In this document: one piece after another, positions 20,792 through 25,889 of the stretch
How the letters are laid out: each line of letters opens with the position of its first letter
Numbering within the stretch: position 1 is the first letter of the stretch
Virus record (IMG/VR): IMGVR_UViG_3300025293_000008
Location: 1 to 41,275 of that record
Strand: one strand, 5' to 3'
Length of the DNA: 41,275 nucleotides
Source: a virus
The notes under the pieces: generated by a model
Seen by the model: the letters and a program-made list of their open reading frames with translations, nothing else
Told to the model about the DNA's origin: nothing
Database searches by the model: none
Position numbers and translations under genes: made by a program

Positions 20792-20815
20792 GTGGGATTT
20801 TTATAAAGGTAAGTG

Positions 20816-22033
20816 ATGGCGAATAATCTACCCACAATAGATGACATCACATTAGCCGCACTAGATGTGTTTGAAAATAACCTCTATGCAGCTAAGTGTT
20901 GTAGTCGAAAGCTCGAAGATGATTTCGGGTCGAAGGGTGGTCAGATTGGTGACTCGATCCGGATTCGAAAACCGGCGCAGTTCACCGTTCGGACCGGCCA
21001 GGCGTGGGCGGGGCAGGACATTGAAGAGCAGACCGATACGCTGACATTGGATCGGCAGAAAGGTGTGGACTTTTCGATGTCTTCAAAGGAGCGCAAGCTG
21101 GATTTGAACAGCTTGACACAGCAGGTGCTCAAGCCTGCGATTGTCCGACTGGCCAATGAAGTCGATGCCAACATCTTGGAAGAGGTGAGTAAATCGACAT
21201 TCAATGCCGTGGGCACTCCGGGAACCACTCCCTCCACGATGCAAACCTACATCGACGCAGGCGTCAAGCTGACGAACTTCACCTGTCCACGGGGCAATGG
21301 TGAACGGCACTTGATGGTCAATGCGGAGATGGAAGGTGACATTGCCTATGCGTTGAGAGACTACTTTCATCGCGCAGGTAAAATTAGCGAGGTGTTCGAC
21401 AAGGCAGAGGTCGCGGATTACGTGGCAGGCTACAACTGGTATACCGACCAGAACGTCTACACGCATACCGTTGGCACCTATGCTGGCACCCCGTTGGTCA
21501 ATGGTGCCAGTCAAACGGGATCAAGTCTGATCACGGATGGCTGGTCCAGTGGCGCGTCCAACCTCACGGTGGGCGACCGCTTCACGATTGCTGATGTGTT
21601 TTCAGTCAATCCGGTCACAAAGGCAACGCAGTCTGATTTACAGCAGTTTGTCGTGACCACGGCAGTGAGTGATAGTTCAGGTGCGATGACGATTAACATT
21701 TCGCCATCCATCGTGGGACCGGGTGAACGGTTCCAGAATGTTAGCGCACTCCCGGCCAATGATGCTGCGATTACGGTGTTCGGCACAACCGGGAATGTGT
21801 ATTCTCAGGGCGTGGCGTTCAACGAAGAAGCGGTAGCGTTGGCAATCGTACCGTTAGAGCGCCCCAAGGGTGTGAATCAGGCTTCGATGAAGTATGATGC
21901 ACAGTCGGGTGTCGGTCTACGGTATATCGAATGGTATGACGGCGATTCCGATATCTGGAAGAGTCGTTTTGACGTCCTCTATGGCATCAAGACCCAGCGA
22001 CCAGAGTGGTCGGTGGCGATTGCAGCCGCTTAA
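20816..22033 (+). CDS. Major coat protein, P22 gene 5-like
   Basis: A 405-residue protein with the features of the P22 coat family: N-terminal ANNLPTIDDITLAALDVFENN, IRIRKPAQFTVRTGQAW, TDTLTLDRQKGVDFSMSSKE, then VLKPAIVRLANEVDANIL, an inserted domain (VNGASQTGSSLITDGWSSGA...), and a C-terminal VGLRYIEWYDGDSDIWKSRFDVLYG. It forms the T=7 type shell. ATG at 20816 has AAAGG seven bases upstream; GTG at 20813 is an alternative. The codon style here is more G+C-rich than in the scaffold, as in other highly expressed genes of the window. Confidence 0.92.
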   Translation: MANNLPTIDDITLAALDVFENNLYAAKCCSRKLEDDFGSKGGQIGDSIRIRKPAQFTVRTGQAWAGQDIEEQTDTLTLDRQKGVDFSMSSKERKLDLNSLTQQVLKPAIVRLANEVDANILEEVSKSTFNAVGTPGTTPSTMQTYIDAGVKLTNFTCPRGNGERHLMVNAEMEGDIAYALRDYFHRAGKISEVFDKAEVADYVAGYNWYTDQNVYTHTVGTYAGTPLVNGASQTGSSLITDGWSSGASNLTVGDRFTIADVFSVNPVTKATQSDLQQFVVTTAVSDSSGAMTINISPSIVGPGERFQNVSALPANDAAITVFGTTGNVYSQGVAFNEEAVALAIVPLERPKGVNQASMKYDAQSGVGLRYIEWYDGDSDIWKSRFDVLYGIKTQRPEWSVAIAAA

Positions 22034-22052: not shown

Positions 22053-22532
22053 ATGCGTAAATTCTTCTTTGTTCTGCTGGTGGCTGGCTTTTTCATGGGC
22101 ATGTCACAGCAGGTTGATGCACAGACATACATGACACGCACAACCCTCAGTGCGGCCATAAATAACTCTCAGGGAACGATTACGGTCGCTTCCGGGACAG
22201 ACTTTACGGCTGGACAGTTTGTGTGGGTGAATGACGAAGCGATGCAGATTTCGTCCGTGTCTGGTACGTCGATCACGGTCATTCGAGGTGTGCTAGGGAC
22301 TCGCGCCCAAGCGCAGGCGAGTGGGGATGCGGCTTTTACGGGTGCTGGCAATCATTTTCAACAGATTGATCCAGAAACCGGCGAGGCGTGTTCAGAAGGC
22401 ACAGGGCAAGCTCTGTATCTTCCGTGGATTAACGTGCAACGCGCTATTCTCTGGCAGTGTTACTCCAGTGCATGGCGTGGGGCGCGTGCGGCAATTATCG
22501 TCGAGAACTCAACCCCGACAACCTTGCCGTAG
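22053..22532 (+). CDS. Exported virion-module protein with signal peptide
   Basis: A 159-residue protein with a clear Sec signal peptide: MRKFFFVLLVAGFFMGMSQQ, then VDA-Q as a signal peptidase I-type site near residue 23. The mature part starts with a beta-rich motif (TLSAAINNSQGTITVASGTD, GQFVWVNDEAMQISSVSGTS, VIRGVLGTRAQAQASGDAAF) seen in phage structural proteins, and ends in a Thr/Pro-rich tail. A signal peptide on such a gene is unusual. It is followed by the TPR and membrane glycosyltransferase-like genes, so it is a candidate substrate of the pair; that is inference. GGAAGGTGTAGG precedes the start. Confidence 0.65.
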   Translation: MRKFFFVLLVAGFFMGMSQQVDAQTYMTRTTLSAAINNSQGTITVASGTDFTAGQFVWVNDEAMQISSVSGTSITVIRGVLGTRAQAQASGDAAFTGAGNHFQQIDPETGEACSEGTGQALYLPWINVQRAILWQCYSSAWRGARAAIIVENSTPTTLP

Positions 22533-22535
22533 CGT

Positions 22536-22958
22536 ATGAAAGCAGGAAAGGTTCTGGTGGTGGCGCTCTGCCTAGTGTGGAGCGTCACCACTGTGAATCA
22601 GGTCTTTCGGTGGGGCCATCCGCTGCATCTGTGGCGGCAGGCCATTGAGGAGTCTCCCGATAAACCACGTCCGTGGAATAATTTGGGGGCGCACTACCTC
22701 CTTGACCGCGCCGAACCTTTTGCCATTCACTGTTTTCAGCGCTCGACCCGCTTGGCGCAACATCCCCATCGCTCACACAATGAACGCGCCAGTGGCATTT
22801 CGGTCGCTCAAACCAATCTGGCATTGCTCGAAGCGCAACACGGAGAATACGACCGGGCCTTGGCACGCATTACCCCGGTGATGAACTTATACAGGTTACA
22901 GGAAACGATTGCGGCGCACGCATGGATTACCAGACAGAAGATTATCGCCTCTCAGTAG
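22536..22958 (+). CDS. TPR protein with membrane anchor, TMTC-like C-terminal part
   Basis: A 140-residue protein: a hydrophobic N-terminal helix (VLVVALCLVWSVTTV, 6-20), then HLWRQAIEESPDKPRPWNNLGAHYLL (31-56), a textbook TPR start, and more TPR-like helices (AQTNLALLEAQHGEYDRALARI, 91-112). In bacterial TMTC-like glycosyltransferases, the last membrane helix is followed by LW.D...SP...R...NNLG.. repeats, and this protein looks like just that part, detached. It overlaps the membrane gene by 37 bases. Likely a periplasm-facing adaptor presenting substrate. Start codon at 22536 lacks a strong leader, so coupling to the preceding stop is probable. Confidence 0.7.
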   Translation: MKAGKVLVVALCLVWSVTTVNQVFRWGHPLHLWRQAIEESPDKPRPWNNLGAHYLLDRAEPFAIHCFQRSTRLAQHPHRSHNERASGISVAQTNLALLEAQHGEYDRALARITPVMNLYRLQETIAAHAWITRQKIIASQ

Positions 22959-23989
22959 CCCTGTTTGTGACCTTGGCCTTCTGCATGTATTTGCCATTGA
23001 AGGCTGCGCCATTTGTCTACGAAGATGTACGCTGGTTGGGGGCGGTGAATCAGGAAATTCTCTGGACGTGGCCGAGTCGCGCTTTCACTAATTTTAGTTT
23101 TCAGCTACAGGCGGAACTTCCGGCATCTTTTGGCTGGCCGGTGAGTCCGACGTGGTTTCATGTGCTGAATGTCGGTGTTCATTTAGTGAACAGTGTGCTG
23201 GTAGCGATTATTGCGCTTCCGATGATTGGGCGCTTAGGGTCCATTTTTGCCTCCGGGATGTTTGCGATTCATCCGCTTCAGACCGAAGCGGTGAGTTATG
23301 TGGCAGCGCGAGGGGATTTACTGCTGACATTCTGTGCTTTAGTGGCCTTATGGGGACTTCGCAACGGACAACGGGGCTTGATGGTGACGGCTGTCGCTGT
23401 GATTCTGGCAGGCTGGACGAAGGAAATCGGGGTGGTGGTCGCGGCCTTGATGCTCTGGACCTGTCTCATTTATCGACAGCATCTCAAGCTCATGGCGTAT
23501 GGGGCCGGTGTGGTCGCTCTGCTCTGCTTGGTGCAATGGCCGACGTTTCTGGCGTGGATGACACTTCCTGAAAATGCTGGAGGGTCATCGCTGTCATGGG
23601 CTGCGTTTGTTGGCACACAGGTAGGTGCGTTTTCTCGGTTATTCGCACTGGCACTCTGGCCGTTTGGATTTACGGTGGACCATGATATGGCGACCTTGAG
23701 TTTATTATGGCGTTTTGTCGGAGGATGGTTGATGTTTCTGGCGATTCTTGTCATGGTGAAGACGTGGCAGCAGGCACCAGTGTGGACGTGGGCGGGTGGC
23801 TGGATATTGCTCTCAGTCTTTCCACGATTGGTGGTGCCGCAATATAATTTTTTCAGTGAACACCAGATGTATTTGCCGATGGTGGCAATCAGTGTGCTAG
23901 GCGGGATGATATTGGCACAGTTGTGGCAGGGAAAGGATTCATCGTGGCTGATGCAGGTCCGTATGTACATCAATCATATCCGAGCGTAA
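22922..23989 (+). CDS. TMTC/PMT-like (GT-C) membrane glycosyltransferase
   Basis: A 355-residue integral membrane protein with about 9-10 membrane helices. Family-like motifs appear in order: PFVYEDVRWL (E34-D35, the place of the acidic catalytic pair in the first extracytoplasmic loop), FAIHPLQTEAVSYVAARGDL (114-132), GWTKEIGV (164-171), and PQYNFFSEHQMYLP (306-319), which parallels the TMTC NL.....ER.LYLPS motif. TMTC/PMT enzymes move sugars from lipid-linked donors to Ser/Thr of exported proteins. Length is short of bacterial homologues because the TPR part is a separate gene upstream. No strong leader at 22922; coupling is likely. Activity is inferred. Confidence 0.75.
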   Translation: MDYQTEDYRLSVALFVTLAFCMYLPLKAAPFVYEDVRWLGAVNQEILWTWPSRAFTNFSFQLQAELPASFGWPVSPTWFHVLNVGVHLVNSVLVAIIALPMIGRLGSIFASGMFAIHPLQTEAVSYVAARGDLLLTFCALVALWGLRNGQRGLMVTAVAVILAGWTKEIGVVVAALMLWTCLIYRQHLKLMAYGAGVVALLCLVQWPTFLAWMTLPENAGGSSLSWAAFVGTQVGAFSRLFALALWPFGFTVDHDMATLSLLWRFVGGWLMFLAILVMVKTWQQAPVWTWAGGWILLSVFPRLVVPQYNFFSEHQMYLPMVAISVLGGMILAQLWQGKDSSWLMQVRMYINHIRA

Positions 23990-24156
23990 GATACCACCGT
24001 GACGGCGCGACACGGATGGTCTATTCTGAGAAAGAAGATCGCGCATTAGGGTCGGAGTGGGCTGAATCGCCTGCGGTCTGGACTGTTGTCTCAAAAGCTC
24101 CAGCAAAACCCAAAACGAACGCTAAACCACGACGCAAAGCGCGTCAGAAGGGCTAG
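23944..24156 (+). CDS. Small conserved phage protein (YP.R/HP.G..W..SP type)
   Basis: A 70-residue protein: YPSVRYHRDGATRMVYSEKE, ALGSEWAESPAVW and a Lys/Pro/Arg-rich tail. This YP..xYhxxG...v..eeEe.alG.eW...P pattern is common in small phage structural-module proteins. GTG at 23944 has AAAGGA six bases upstream; GTG at 23923 is an alternative. It overlaps the end of the membrane glycosyltransferase gene by 46 bases. Function unknown. Confidence 0.65.
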   Translation: MADAGPYVHQSYPSVRYHRDGATRMVYSEKEDRALGSEWAESPAVWTVVSKAPAKPKTNAKPRRKARQKG

Positions 24157-24158
24157 TT

Positions 24159-25238
24159 ATGATAGCTGCTCCTCTTGCTCATCGCATTTTTGATGCGGAT
24201 GGTGAAGATAAAGTGCTGGATGTACGGGGATTGGGGGGTGTGGCCCTCCAATTAAGCGGGACATTTAGCATGACCGTCCAGTTTGAAGCTACGACAGACG
24301 GACAAACGTGGGTGTCTTTGCGGATGCTGCCAAGTAACAGCACGTCAGCGGCGACCAATGCAACATCAGCCGGTGTGTGGTCTGCGAATGTGGCGGGTTT
24401 CAAGCTCATGCGGGCGCGAGTGAGCGCCTACACCTCTGGTAGTGCCGATGTGACGTTATTAGCCGCTTCCGCCTCCGGGCGTGTTGGAGCGAGTGGCGGC
24501 GATGCCGAAACACTCGATGGTGAGGACGGCTCCTACTATCTCGACGTGGACAACATGACCGCTGGCACCCTTGCGGTGGCCCGTGGCGGCACTGGCGCAG
24601 CCACCCATACCTCTGGCAACTATCTGAAGGGTGCTGGAACGGGAGCGATTACGAGTGCGACGGCAGCCGCGACCTTTGCAGATGTTTCCCCACTGACGAC
24701 ACGCGGGGACCTGCTCGTCGGCACCAGTGGAGCGCCGACCGGCGCACGACTCGCCAAAGGCAGTTCCGGGAACGTCCTGACGATGGCCGACGGCAATGAT
24801 ATTGGGTGGGCAGCAGCGTCTGGTGGAGGCAAGATTCTTCAAGTGGTCTATGGAGTAGATACGTCGGCGGCGTCGTCAAGTTCCAGCACGATGGCTGACA
24901 CGGGACTCACCGCGTCGATCACCCCCGCAGACGACGATAACAAAATCTTGGTGCTGGTATCACACAACGGGGTGGGCAAAGTAACAAGCAACACTCGCGT
25001 CCATACGCAGTTGCTCCGCGATTCGACGACGATTGCGGTGGAAAATTCTCAAGCCTACACAGCGGATACTGGCACGATTTACACAGGCAGTTCGAGTTGG
25101 TCGGTGCTTGATGATCCCCAAACAGCCAGCGAAATCGTCTATAAAACCCAATTTATGAGTCAAGCAGACGCAGGTACTGTATATGTAGGTCTAAATTCCA
25201 GCACGTCAACGATGGTCCTTCTAGAAGTGGATGTCTAA
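24159..25238 (+). CDS. Tail fibre-like structural protein with duplicated N-domain
   Basis: A 359-residue protein of three parts. Residues 1-110 are a beta-sandwich-like domain (FDADGEDKVLDVRGLGGVAL, MTVQFEATTDGQTWVSLRML, SANVAGFKLMRARVSAYTSG) that is repeated as a separate gene at 25557-25889. The middle holds fibre-type repeats (VARGGTGAATHTSGNYLKGA, TTRGDLLVGTSGAPTGARLA). The C-terminal 130 residues are Ser/Thr-rich and beta-like, common in phage fibres and receptor-binding ends. AAGGG precedes ATG at 24159. Likely a virion surface protein, attached through the N-domain. Confidence 0.7.
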   Translation: MIAAPLAHRIFDADGEDKVLDVRGLGGVALQLSGTFSMTVQFEATTDGQTWVSLRMLPSNSTSAATNATSAGVWSANVAGFKLMRARVSAYTSGSADVTLLAASASGRVGASGGDAETLDGEDGSYYLDVDNMTAGTLAVARGGTGAATHTSGNYLKGAGTGAITSATAAATFADVSPLTTRGDLLVGTSGAPTGARLAKGSSGNVLTMADGNDIGWAAASGGGKILQVVYGVDTSAASSSSSTMADTGLTASITPADDDNKILVLVSHNGVGKVTSNTRVHTQLLRDSTTIAVENSQAYTADTGTIYTGSSSWSVLDDPQTASEIVYKTQFMSQADAGTVYVGLNSSTSTMVLLEVDV

Positions 25239-25239
25239 T

Positions 25240-25560
25240 ATGAGTCATCATTTATCAGAAATCATACGGTGGAAAGAACCGACAGCGCGGGTGGTGACTC
25301 GCGGCTCTGGCGACGACGAGAAGATTGTCCGATGGGACGGACCTGGACGACAGCCATCGGCCAGTAAATTGGCGCAATGGGCCACGGAGTATCACGCACA
25401 GGGCATCGAGCAGGAACAGGCGGCGCTTGACCGGATCAACAGCAATGTGGCCATTCGGGCGCTCATCGCGGAAATTGCCCATCCACTAGGTCTGACCGAA
25501 GAAGAGTTTGGCGAAGCCGTGAAAGAACGGGTGAAGTCGATCCTGCAAGGTGGATCATGA
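25240..25560 (+). CDS. Small hypothetical structural-module protein
   Basis: A 106-residue hydrophilic protein: IIRWKEPTARVVTRGSGDDE, KIVRWDGPGRQPSASKLAQW, and a helical C-terminal half (EQEQAALDRINSNVAIRALI, EEEFGEAVKERVKSIL). The second half resembles small tail-assembly-type helices in composition. ATG at 25240 directly follows the previous stop; ATG at 25231 is an alternative. An ATGA overlap joins it to the next gene. It sits between the two copies of the N-domain. Function unknown. Confidence 0.6.
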   Translation: MSHHLSEIIRWKEPTARVVTRGSGDDEKIVRWDGPGRQPSASKLAQWATEYHAQGIEQEQAALDRINSNVAIRALIAEIAHPLGLTEEEFGEAVKERVKSILQGGS

Positions 25561-25889
25561 GTCTGGCTGCGCCGATTGCCGATGATATTTTTGATGCCGA
25601 TGGCGACGTCCTGCTCTTTGACGTCCGAGGCTTAGGGGCGGTGGGATTTCAACTGTCTGGTACATTTACACTGACAGTACAATTTGAAGCCACTGTGGAT
25701 GGAGAAACCTTCGTGGGGTTGAACATGCTCCCATCCAATAGTGCGACGGCAGTCTCTTCCACTACTGCGGCGGGTGGGTGGAGAGCCAATGTTGCGGGGT
25801 ATCGCTATGTTCGGGCGAGAGTGAGCGCCTTTACGTCAGGGAGTGCGAACGCGACATTTCTCGCGGCGAGTACCGGAGGCGCACACTAA
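25557..25889 (+). CDS. Stand-alone paralogue of the fibre N-terminal domain
   Basis: A 110-residue protein that parallels residues 1-110 of the 24159-25238 protein almost segment by segment: IFDADGDVLLFDVRGLGAVG, LTVQFEATVDGETFVGLNML, WRANVAGYRYVRARVSAFTS and NATFLAAS. It has no fibre or C-terminal receptor part. It could be a decoration protein or a cap occupying the same attachment site as the fibre. ATGA overlap with the previous gene and TAATG with the next make this a tightly coupled group. Confidence 0.7.
   Translation: MSLAAPIADDIFDADGDVLLFDVRGLGAVGFQLSGTFTLTVQFEATVDGETFVGLNMLPSNSATAVSSTTAAGGWRANVAGYRYVRARVSAFTSGSANATFLAASTGGAH

Follow-up and report, generated by a model that had tools for sequence, protein, structure and literature searches.

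The window, that is the whole stretch of DNA analysed here, is a 41,275-nt IMG/VR virus record of a P22-type phage. Portal, terminase and head closure genes are present, and the phage also carries the recombination genes Erf and YqaJ. Between the P22-type coat gene and the tail accessory genes lies a cassette of three open reading frames, found exactly where the original prediction had placed them, with a P22 coat gene (PF11651) upstream and virion-type genes downstream. The cassette and its surroundings are:

20813..22033, + strand: P22-type coat protein, directly upstream of the cassette (PF11651, E 1.8e-42; phrog_283)
22053..22532, + strand: exported protein of 159 aa, candidate acceptor (tail PHROGs 1101 and 9851; conserved signal peptide and Cys pair; dN/dS)
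22053..22121, + strand: signal peptide MRKFFFVLLVAGFFMGMSQQVDA|Q of the exported protein, residues 1-23 (by eye and hydropathy)
22536..22958, + strand: predicted TM11 and TPR subunit of 140 aa (bacterial TMTC profile; hhalign; AF2)
22539..22613, + strand: codons of the TM helix of the TPR protein, residues ~2-26, corresponding to TM11
22922..23989, + strand: putative GT-C catalytic core (GT) of 355 aa with 10 TM helices (bacterial TMTC profile; AF2; Foldseek)
23923..24156, + strand: small gene overlapping the end of the GT gene (by weak similarity the counterpart of the small gene that precedes the tail adaptor in P22-like phages lacking the cassette)

The genes of the cassette nearly abut or overlap, and the GT gene starts 37 nt inside the TPR gene. 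Both GC and GC3 of the cassette are within the range of the neighbouring genes. On the 3' side there are small or virion-type genes, a head-tail adaptor-like protein and head closure Hc3. Two window genes, 24159-25238 and 25557-25889, have a duplicated N-terminal domain in common (~65% identity); both are virion-type and without a family match.

The ends of the contig (3-2230 and 39146-41273) repeat each other over ~2.1 kb at 94-98% identity, in two aligned blocks that are offset from one another by a net 100 nt. The genome is probably circular, ~39 kb long and assembled to closure from two strain variants, the alternative being a diverged duplication.

One bacterial chain corresponds to two phage genes

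Single-sequence searches with the GT protein (in Pfam, NCBIfam, PHROGs, PADLOC and the PDB, and among phage records and plasmids) returned no informative match, and PF08409, which covers the loop between TM7 and TM8, matches none of the nine phage GT proteins. For the TPR protein alone there are weak TPR matches in Pfam. The motifs quoted in the original prediction are all present in the GT protein: VYED at residues 32-35, IHPLQTEAVSYVAARGDL, GWTKEIG and SEHQMYLP.

Bacterial relatives were collected with a degenerate DNA pattern that encodes HPxxTEAVx5R[GA][DE]L and has a chance expectation of zero in the window. Among 2.9 million viral contigs this pattern is found only in the phage group of the window, and across bacterial genomes it is found in more than 117 stretches. 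The bacterial profile, an HMM built from 90 one-chain ORFs obtained in this way, matches the GT protein over profile positions 17-387 with 131 bits (E 2e-42, hmmsearch). When the 20-residue seed motif is masked the score is still 63 bits (E 9e-22), and the reversed GT sequence, which served as control, gives no match. The TPR protein matches the same profile from position 390 onward (E 4e-17), its TM helix and linker alone giving E 9e-10. Fused in bacterial order the two proteins score 191 bits, compared with 171 bits in the natural phage order. A profile-profile comparison of phage-only with bacteria-only sequences (hhalign) places the GT at 15-388 (probability 100, E 3e-40; 4e-31 with the motif masked) and the TPR protein at 391-509 (probability 98.6, E 5e-16).

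The GT and TPR proteins thus match complementary parts of the bacterial chain and, by these alignments, are one chain that in the phage is cut between TM10 and TM11, with the gene order reversed. This agrees with the earlier description of the TPR as a separate gene that is placed first and starts with the last membrane helix. It agrees also with the bacterial homologues being one-chain: 98 of the bacterial ORFs with the motif have this form, a further 17 are truncated where their locus ends, and 3 are of other kinds. The proposed TMTC/PMT-type GT-C identity stands and makes the GT a relative of the human TMTC proteins, with the qualification that the match is not direct and runs via the bacterial one-chain homologues. 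In a joint alignment of 63 members PF08409 (TMTC_DUF1736) is found in 25 and PMT_2 in nine.

Fold, topology and active site

The AlphaFold model of the GT protein has a pLDDT of 83.4 and a pTM of 0.87. In a fold search with Foldseek the first 35 PDB matches are GT-C-like with a probability of at least 0.93, after which the probability drops below 0.2; the E-values of these matches are modest (best 2.7e-3). They include AglB, STT3, ArnT, PMT, ALG and arabinosyltransferases. A better match to a non-enzymatic family had been named as an outcome that would speak against the prediction; only GT-C-type enzymes were found at high probability. The AF2 model of the TPR protein (pLDDT 95) resembles TPR proteins, including OGT.

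Ten TM helices with both termini inside (N-in/C-in) fit the AlphaFold helices and the charge distribution of the GT, as anticipated: in the inside loops there are 10 K+R per 63 residues and in the outside loops 4 per 125, following the positive-inside rule. Since the C-terminus of the GT is inside after ten helices and TM11 heads the TPR protein, the break falls in a cytoplasmic loop, and the halves on either side of such a break can each insert independently. By the helix order of the model the motif residues fall on one face.

As defined by Eisenhaber et al. (2021, PMC7801869), a TMTC carries the motifs M1-M7, crosses the membrane with 11 helices and has its TPR in the lumen. In the phage, ten of the helices are in one gene and TM11 with the TPR in another. 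The corresponding residues of the GT are:

23021..23026, + strand: putative catalytic pair E34-D35, motif M1 (invariant in nine phage homologues; D-D in bacteria)
23270..23317, + strand: HPLQTEAVSYVAARGD, residues 117-132, holding R130xD132, motif M3 (TMTC motif definition, PMC7801869)
23420..23425, + strand: K167-E168, motif M4 (invariant in phage homologues)
23678..23686, + strand: D253-H-D255, where TMTC has motif M5 (both Asp residues invariant among phages)
23858..23872, + strand: E313-H-Q-M-Y317, motif M7 (ERxxY in TMTC; by comparison with the TMTC motif)

The M3 RxD, M4 KE and M5 Asp of TMTC are all kept (R130xD132, K167-E168 and D253), position 132 being D or E among phages. The acidic pair is located in the first periplasmic loop as predicted, with the correction that all phages have E-D where TMTC and bacteria have D-D, a conservative change. 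Its loss in related phages, also named beforehand as contrary evidence, was not seen: E34-D35 is invariant in all nine aligned homologues. In M2 (SHKSYRP) the YRP is SRA in the phage, and R53 is the sole YRP residue kept. In M7, E313 and Y317 are kept and Arg is replaced by His, as it is in 14 of the 90 bacterial sequences. Further, the phage has Gln in place of a conserved Arg close to where the fourth loop begins. The residues invariant across the phage GTs are E34, D35, P51, R53, N83, H117, P118, E122, R130, L133, K167, E168, D253 and D255.

The dN/dS ratio is 0.07-0.13 for the GT, 0.12-0.30 for the TPR protein, 0.09-0.18 for the exported protein and 0.05-0.16 for the coat. The GT gene is under strong purifying selection. 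In our view the GT/TPR pair is very probably a GT-C-type enzyme.

The cassette recurs in divergent phages

Besides the window genus, six other divergent lineages of uncultured phages carry the cassette. The first scan gave 13 close relatives of the window, and in these the order coat - exported protein - TPR - GT is kept wherever the contig covers it. L168 was found by a looser DNA pattern, and a TPR-linker pattern built on the window and L168 yielded L176/L179, L177, L178, L181 and L182, each with a GT-C gene directly 3' of the TPR gene. As these five lineages were found by the TPR pattern alone, the search imposed the linker residues but not the presence of a GT next to them. The order coat - exported protein - TPR - GT is seen in the window genus, L168, L177, L178, L181 and L182, and in L176/L179 the exported protein, TPR and GT follow a different coat.

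The lineages from the TPR-linker pattern have a GC of 61-64%, compared with 52% in the window, and in the divergent lineages the GT is 23-37% identical to that of the window. The nine phage GTs form one clade with a FastTree local support of 0.999 (99 sequences), in a tree whose bacterial members were sampled by their motif and in which long branches may favour such a clade. The GT and TPR proteins of the window and the divergent lineages have no match among 50,697 phage records. Integrase genes are present on two related contigs, and part of the carriers may therefore be temperate; in the window itself no integrase gene was detected.

In one close relative (L010:317-1324) the GT lacks, in frame, 19 residues corresponding to window residues 256-274, most of TM8; this is either a real variant or an assembly error. 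A one-chain TMTC homologue of ~470-486 aa, with core and TPR, is found in a 24.7 kb region of IMGVR_UViG_3300033145_002302 (L187), a contig with the phage genes RecT, Phg_2220_C and LPD38. It is an independent phage acquisition, and at the catalytic positions it has GIS for GRA and KG for KE, a homologue that is possibly inactive. In BFVD, two uncharacterised proteins of Nitrosopumilus spindle-shaped viruses (A0A514K300 and A0A514K2W1) match the GT-C model with a TM-score of ~0.6 and a probability of 1.0; judged from these models, GT-C-like proteins occur in archaeal viruses.

The homologues obtained from a search of ~1,400 genomes were all cellular and had long open frames, and neither a close donor nor an evident prophage copy was found there. 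One-chain TMTC homologues of roughly 550-900 aa are numerous and often tandem in many bacterial genomes, among them G810, G012, G013 and G1364; in G810 three are in tandem on the same strand, ~2 kb apart. The phage order could have arisen if, of two tandem copies, only the TM11-TPR end of the first and the core of the second, with what lies between, were retained.

The exported protein

The secreted neighbour that had been predicted does have a signal peptide; what has to be added is that these proteins also contain a tail- or head-type virion domain. In the window it is a TTL domain of tail-protein type with the Cys pair C113/C136. The exported proteins of the window genus, L168 (with an internal GTG start assumed), L177, L178, L181 and L182 are one family, with a signal peptide ending in A-Q, a TTL domain and a Cys pair in common. 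Seven of the eight exported proteins match tail PHROGs. In L176 the gene before TPR-GT instead combines an apparent signal peptide with an unrelated phrog_673 (head) domain, which is also found in the post-coat protein of the cassette-free phage DSL-LC05. This difference between the exported domains weakens the case for a shared acceptor site.

The comparison covered seven phages that have a related coat but no cassette, and the post-coat gene was translated in six, together with that of PAE2. No relation was found between the exported protein of the window and the post-coat proteins of cassette-free phages; only that of L176 is related. The post-coat proteins of six cassette-free P22-like phages have no recognisable signal peptide, signal peptides being judged throughout by eye and hydropathy. 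Export is therefore, as far as can be read from sequence, tied to the cassette in this small sample.

Comparison with known systems

One-chain TMTC homologues are known from prokaryotes (Eisenhaber et al. 2021, PMC7801869). With these and with TMTC1-4 (PF08409, GT-C/PMT clan) the phage pair is joined by whole-length profile homology, and it has the same layout of a membrane core with residues of M1-M7 type, TM11 and then an extracytoplasmic TPR. It differs in having two genes in reversed order, E-D for D-D, shorter first and fourth loops, a short TPR protein (140 aa) and a place in a structural operon. PMT, ArnT and STT3-AglB have the fold and an acidic pair in the first external loop in common with the phage GT, the pair being D-E in ArnT and PMT (PMC7801869). 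In contrast to these, the phage GT has neither a MIR nor a large periplasmic domain and no significant sequence match, and its TPR is a separate subunit.

Gtr serotype-conversion cassettes likewise encode a phage membrane glycosyltransferase. In the GtrA-GtrB-Gtr type this enzyme is expected to use a lipid-linked sugar at the periplasmic face. The window-type phages differ from them: no GT2 gene was found in eight of their records, some of them fragments, the family is another one, the genes are in the structural module and an exported protein is the partner. The enzymes of mycobacteriophage-type capsid glycosylation are, as far as is known, soluble and cytoplasmic. The active site in the window phage would be periplasmic, so that only an exported protein could be reached before lysis. 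Capsid glycosylation has been suggested for mycobacteriophages such as Maravista (PMC11256854), and the likeness is that phage sugar transferases are linked to virion proteins.

Proposed function and alternatives

On balance the data lean slightly towards a phage-encoded, two-subunit TMTC-like GT-C glycosyltransferase with an exported acceptor. TM11-TPR would pack back onto the core in the inner membrane, and at the periplasmic face the GT would draw its sugar from a polyprenyl-phosphate-sugar of the host. A GT2 donor synthase (PF00535) is absent from the eight phage records, some of which are fragments, while the control was positive in 14 of 14 genomes; the host must then supply the polyprenyl-phosphate-sugar. 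The TPR would present the acceptor, most likely the signal-peptide protein with virion-type domains that is encoded upstream. With a periplasmic active site, capsids assembled in the cytoplasm could not be acceptors before lysis, but an exported protein or the envelope could. Once modified, the exported protein could coat virions or debris after lysis, or could block or change the cell surface during infection. We tentatively suggest a more specific version: the phage may export its own virion-type (decoration-like) protein, which is O-glycosylated in the periplasm by the split TMTC with a host lipid-linked sugar and meets virions or neighbouring cells only at lysis. The SRA in M2, the His in M7, the change from Arg to Gln and the lack of a donor synthase count against an enzyme with an exported acceptor.

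The main rival has the same split enzyme act on a host envelope acceptor (a surface protein, a pilin or a lipid-linked glycan), thereby altering receptors or blocking superinfection, with the exported neighbour independent or a helper. A periplasmic active site would suit it, transfer to O-antigen by Gtr is a known phage strategy, and the integrases on two related contigs make lysogenic conversion conceivable. However, the cassette is in a structural and not a conversion module, a GtrA/GtrB-type partner and a GT2 gene are absent from the records searched, and the linkage to an exported phage protein is conserved in all lineages. We regard a host acceptor as rather unlikely and favour transfer to the exported neighbour. 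It is also conceivable that the membrane protein is no longer an enzyme, and that core and TPR are a TMTC-derived envelope complex, either an assembly factor or an exclusion protein. The departures in M2 and M7, the lost Arg and the altered catalytic positions of the one-chain homologue in L187 would fit this, but the M1, M3, M4 and M5 residues are invariant in nine diverged homologues and the dN/dS of the GT is low (0.07-0.13), which makes it improbable. That the GT is an unrelated membrane protein, such as a holin, a transporter or Wzy, and resembles TMTC through a chance motif is scarcely credible: a direct sequence match in Pfam, NCBIfam or the PDB is indeed lacking, but the profile match withstands masking of the motif (4e-31, against 3e-40 unmasked) and vanishes on reversal, the fold search yields GT-C enzymes, and the adjacent TPR gene matches the rest of the same bacterial chain. 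Chance motif, holin and Wzy were rejected for the GT on the profile and fold evidence.

TMTC enzymes and phage glycosyltransferases are already known. We found no report of a phage TMTC-like enzyme in the literature searched, where coverage of subscription journals was mostly lacking. Neither this literature nor the collections searched gave a description of a TMTC that is split with its parts swapped, or of such an arrangement linked to an exported protein of virion type. The present results add phages to the distribution of TMTC-type glycosyltransferases. They also provide a natural dissection of a TMTC enzyme into a core and a TM11-TPR subunit, each small enough for expression; with these separate subunits and a built-in candidate acceptor, acceptor selection by the TPR in TMTCs becomes directly testable. 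A further thought that follows from the cassette is that a phage protein may receive its sugar outside the cytoplasm; if the specific version of the proposal is true, the product would be a glycosylated accessory virion or decoy protein.
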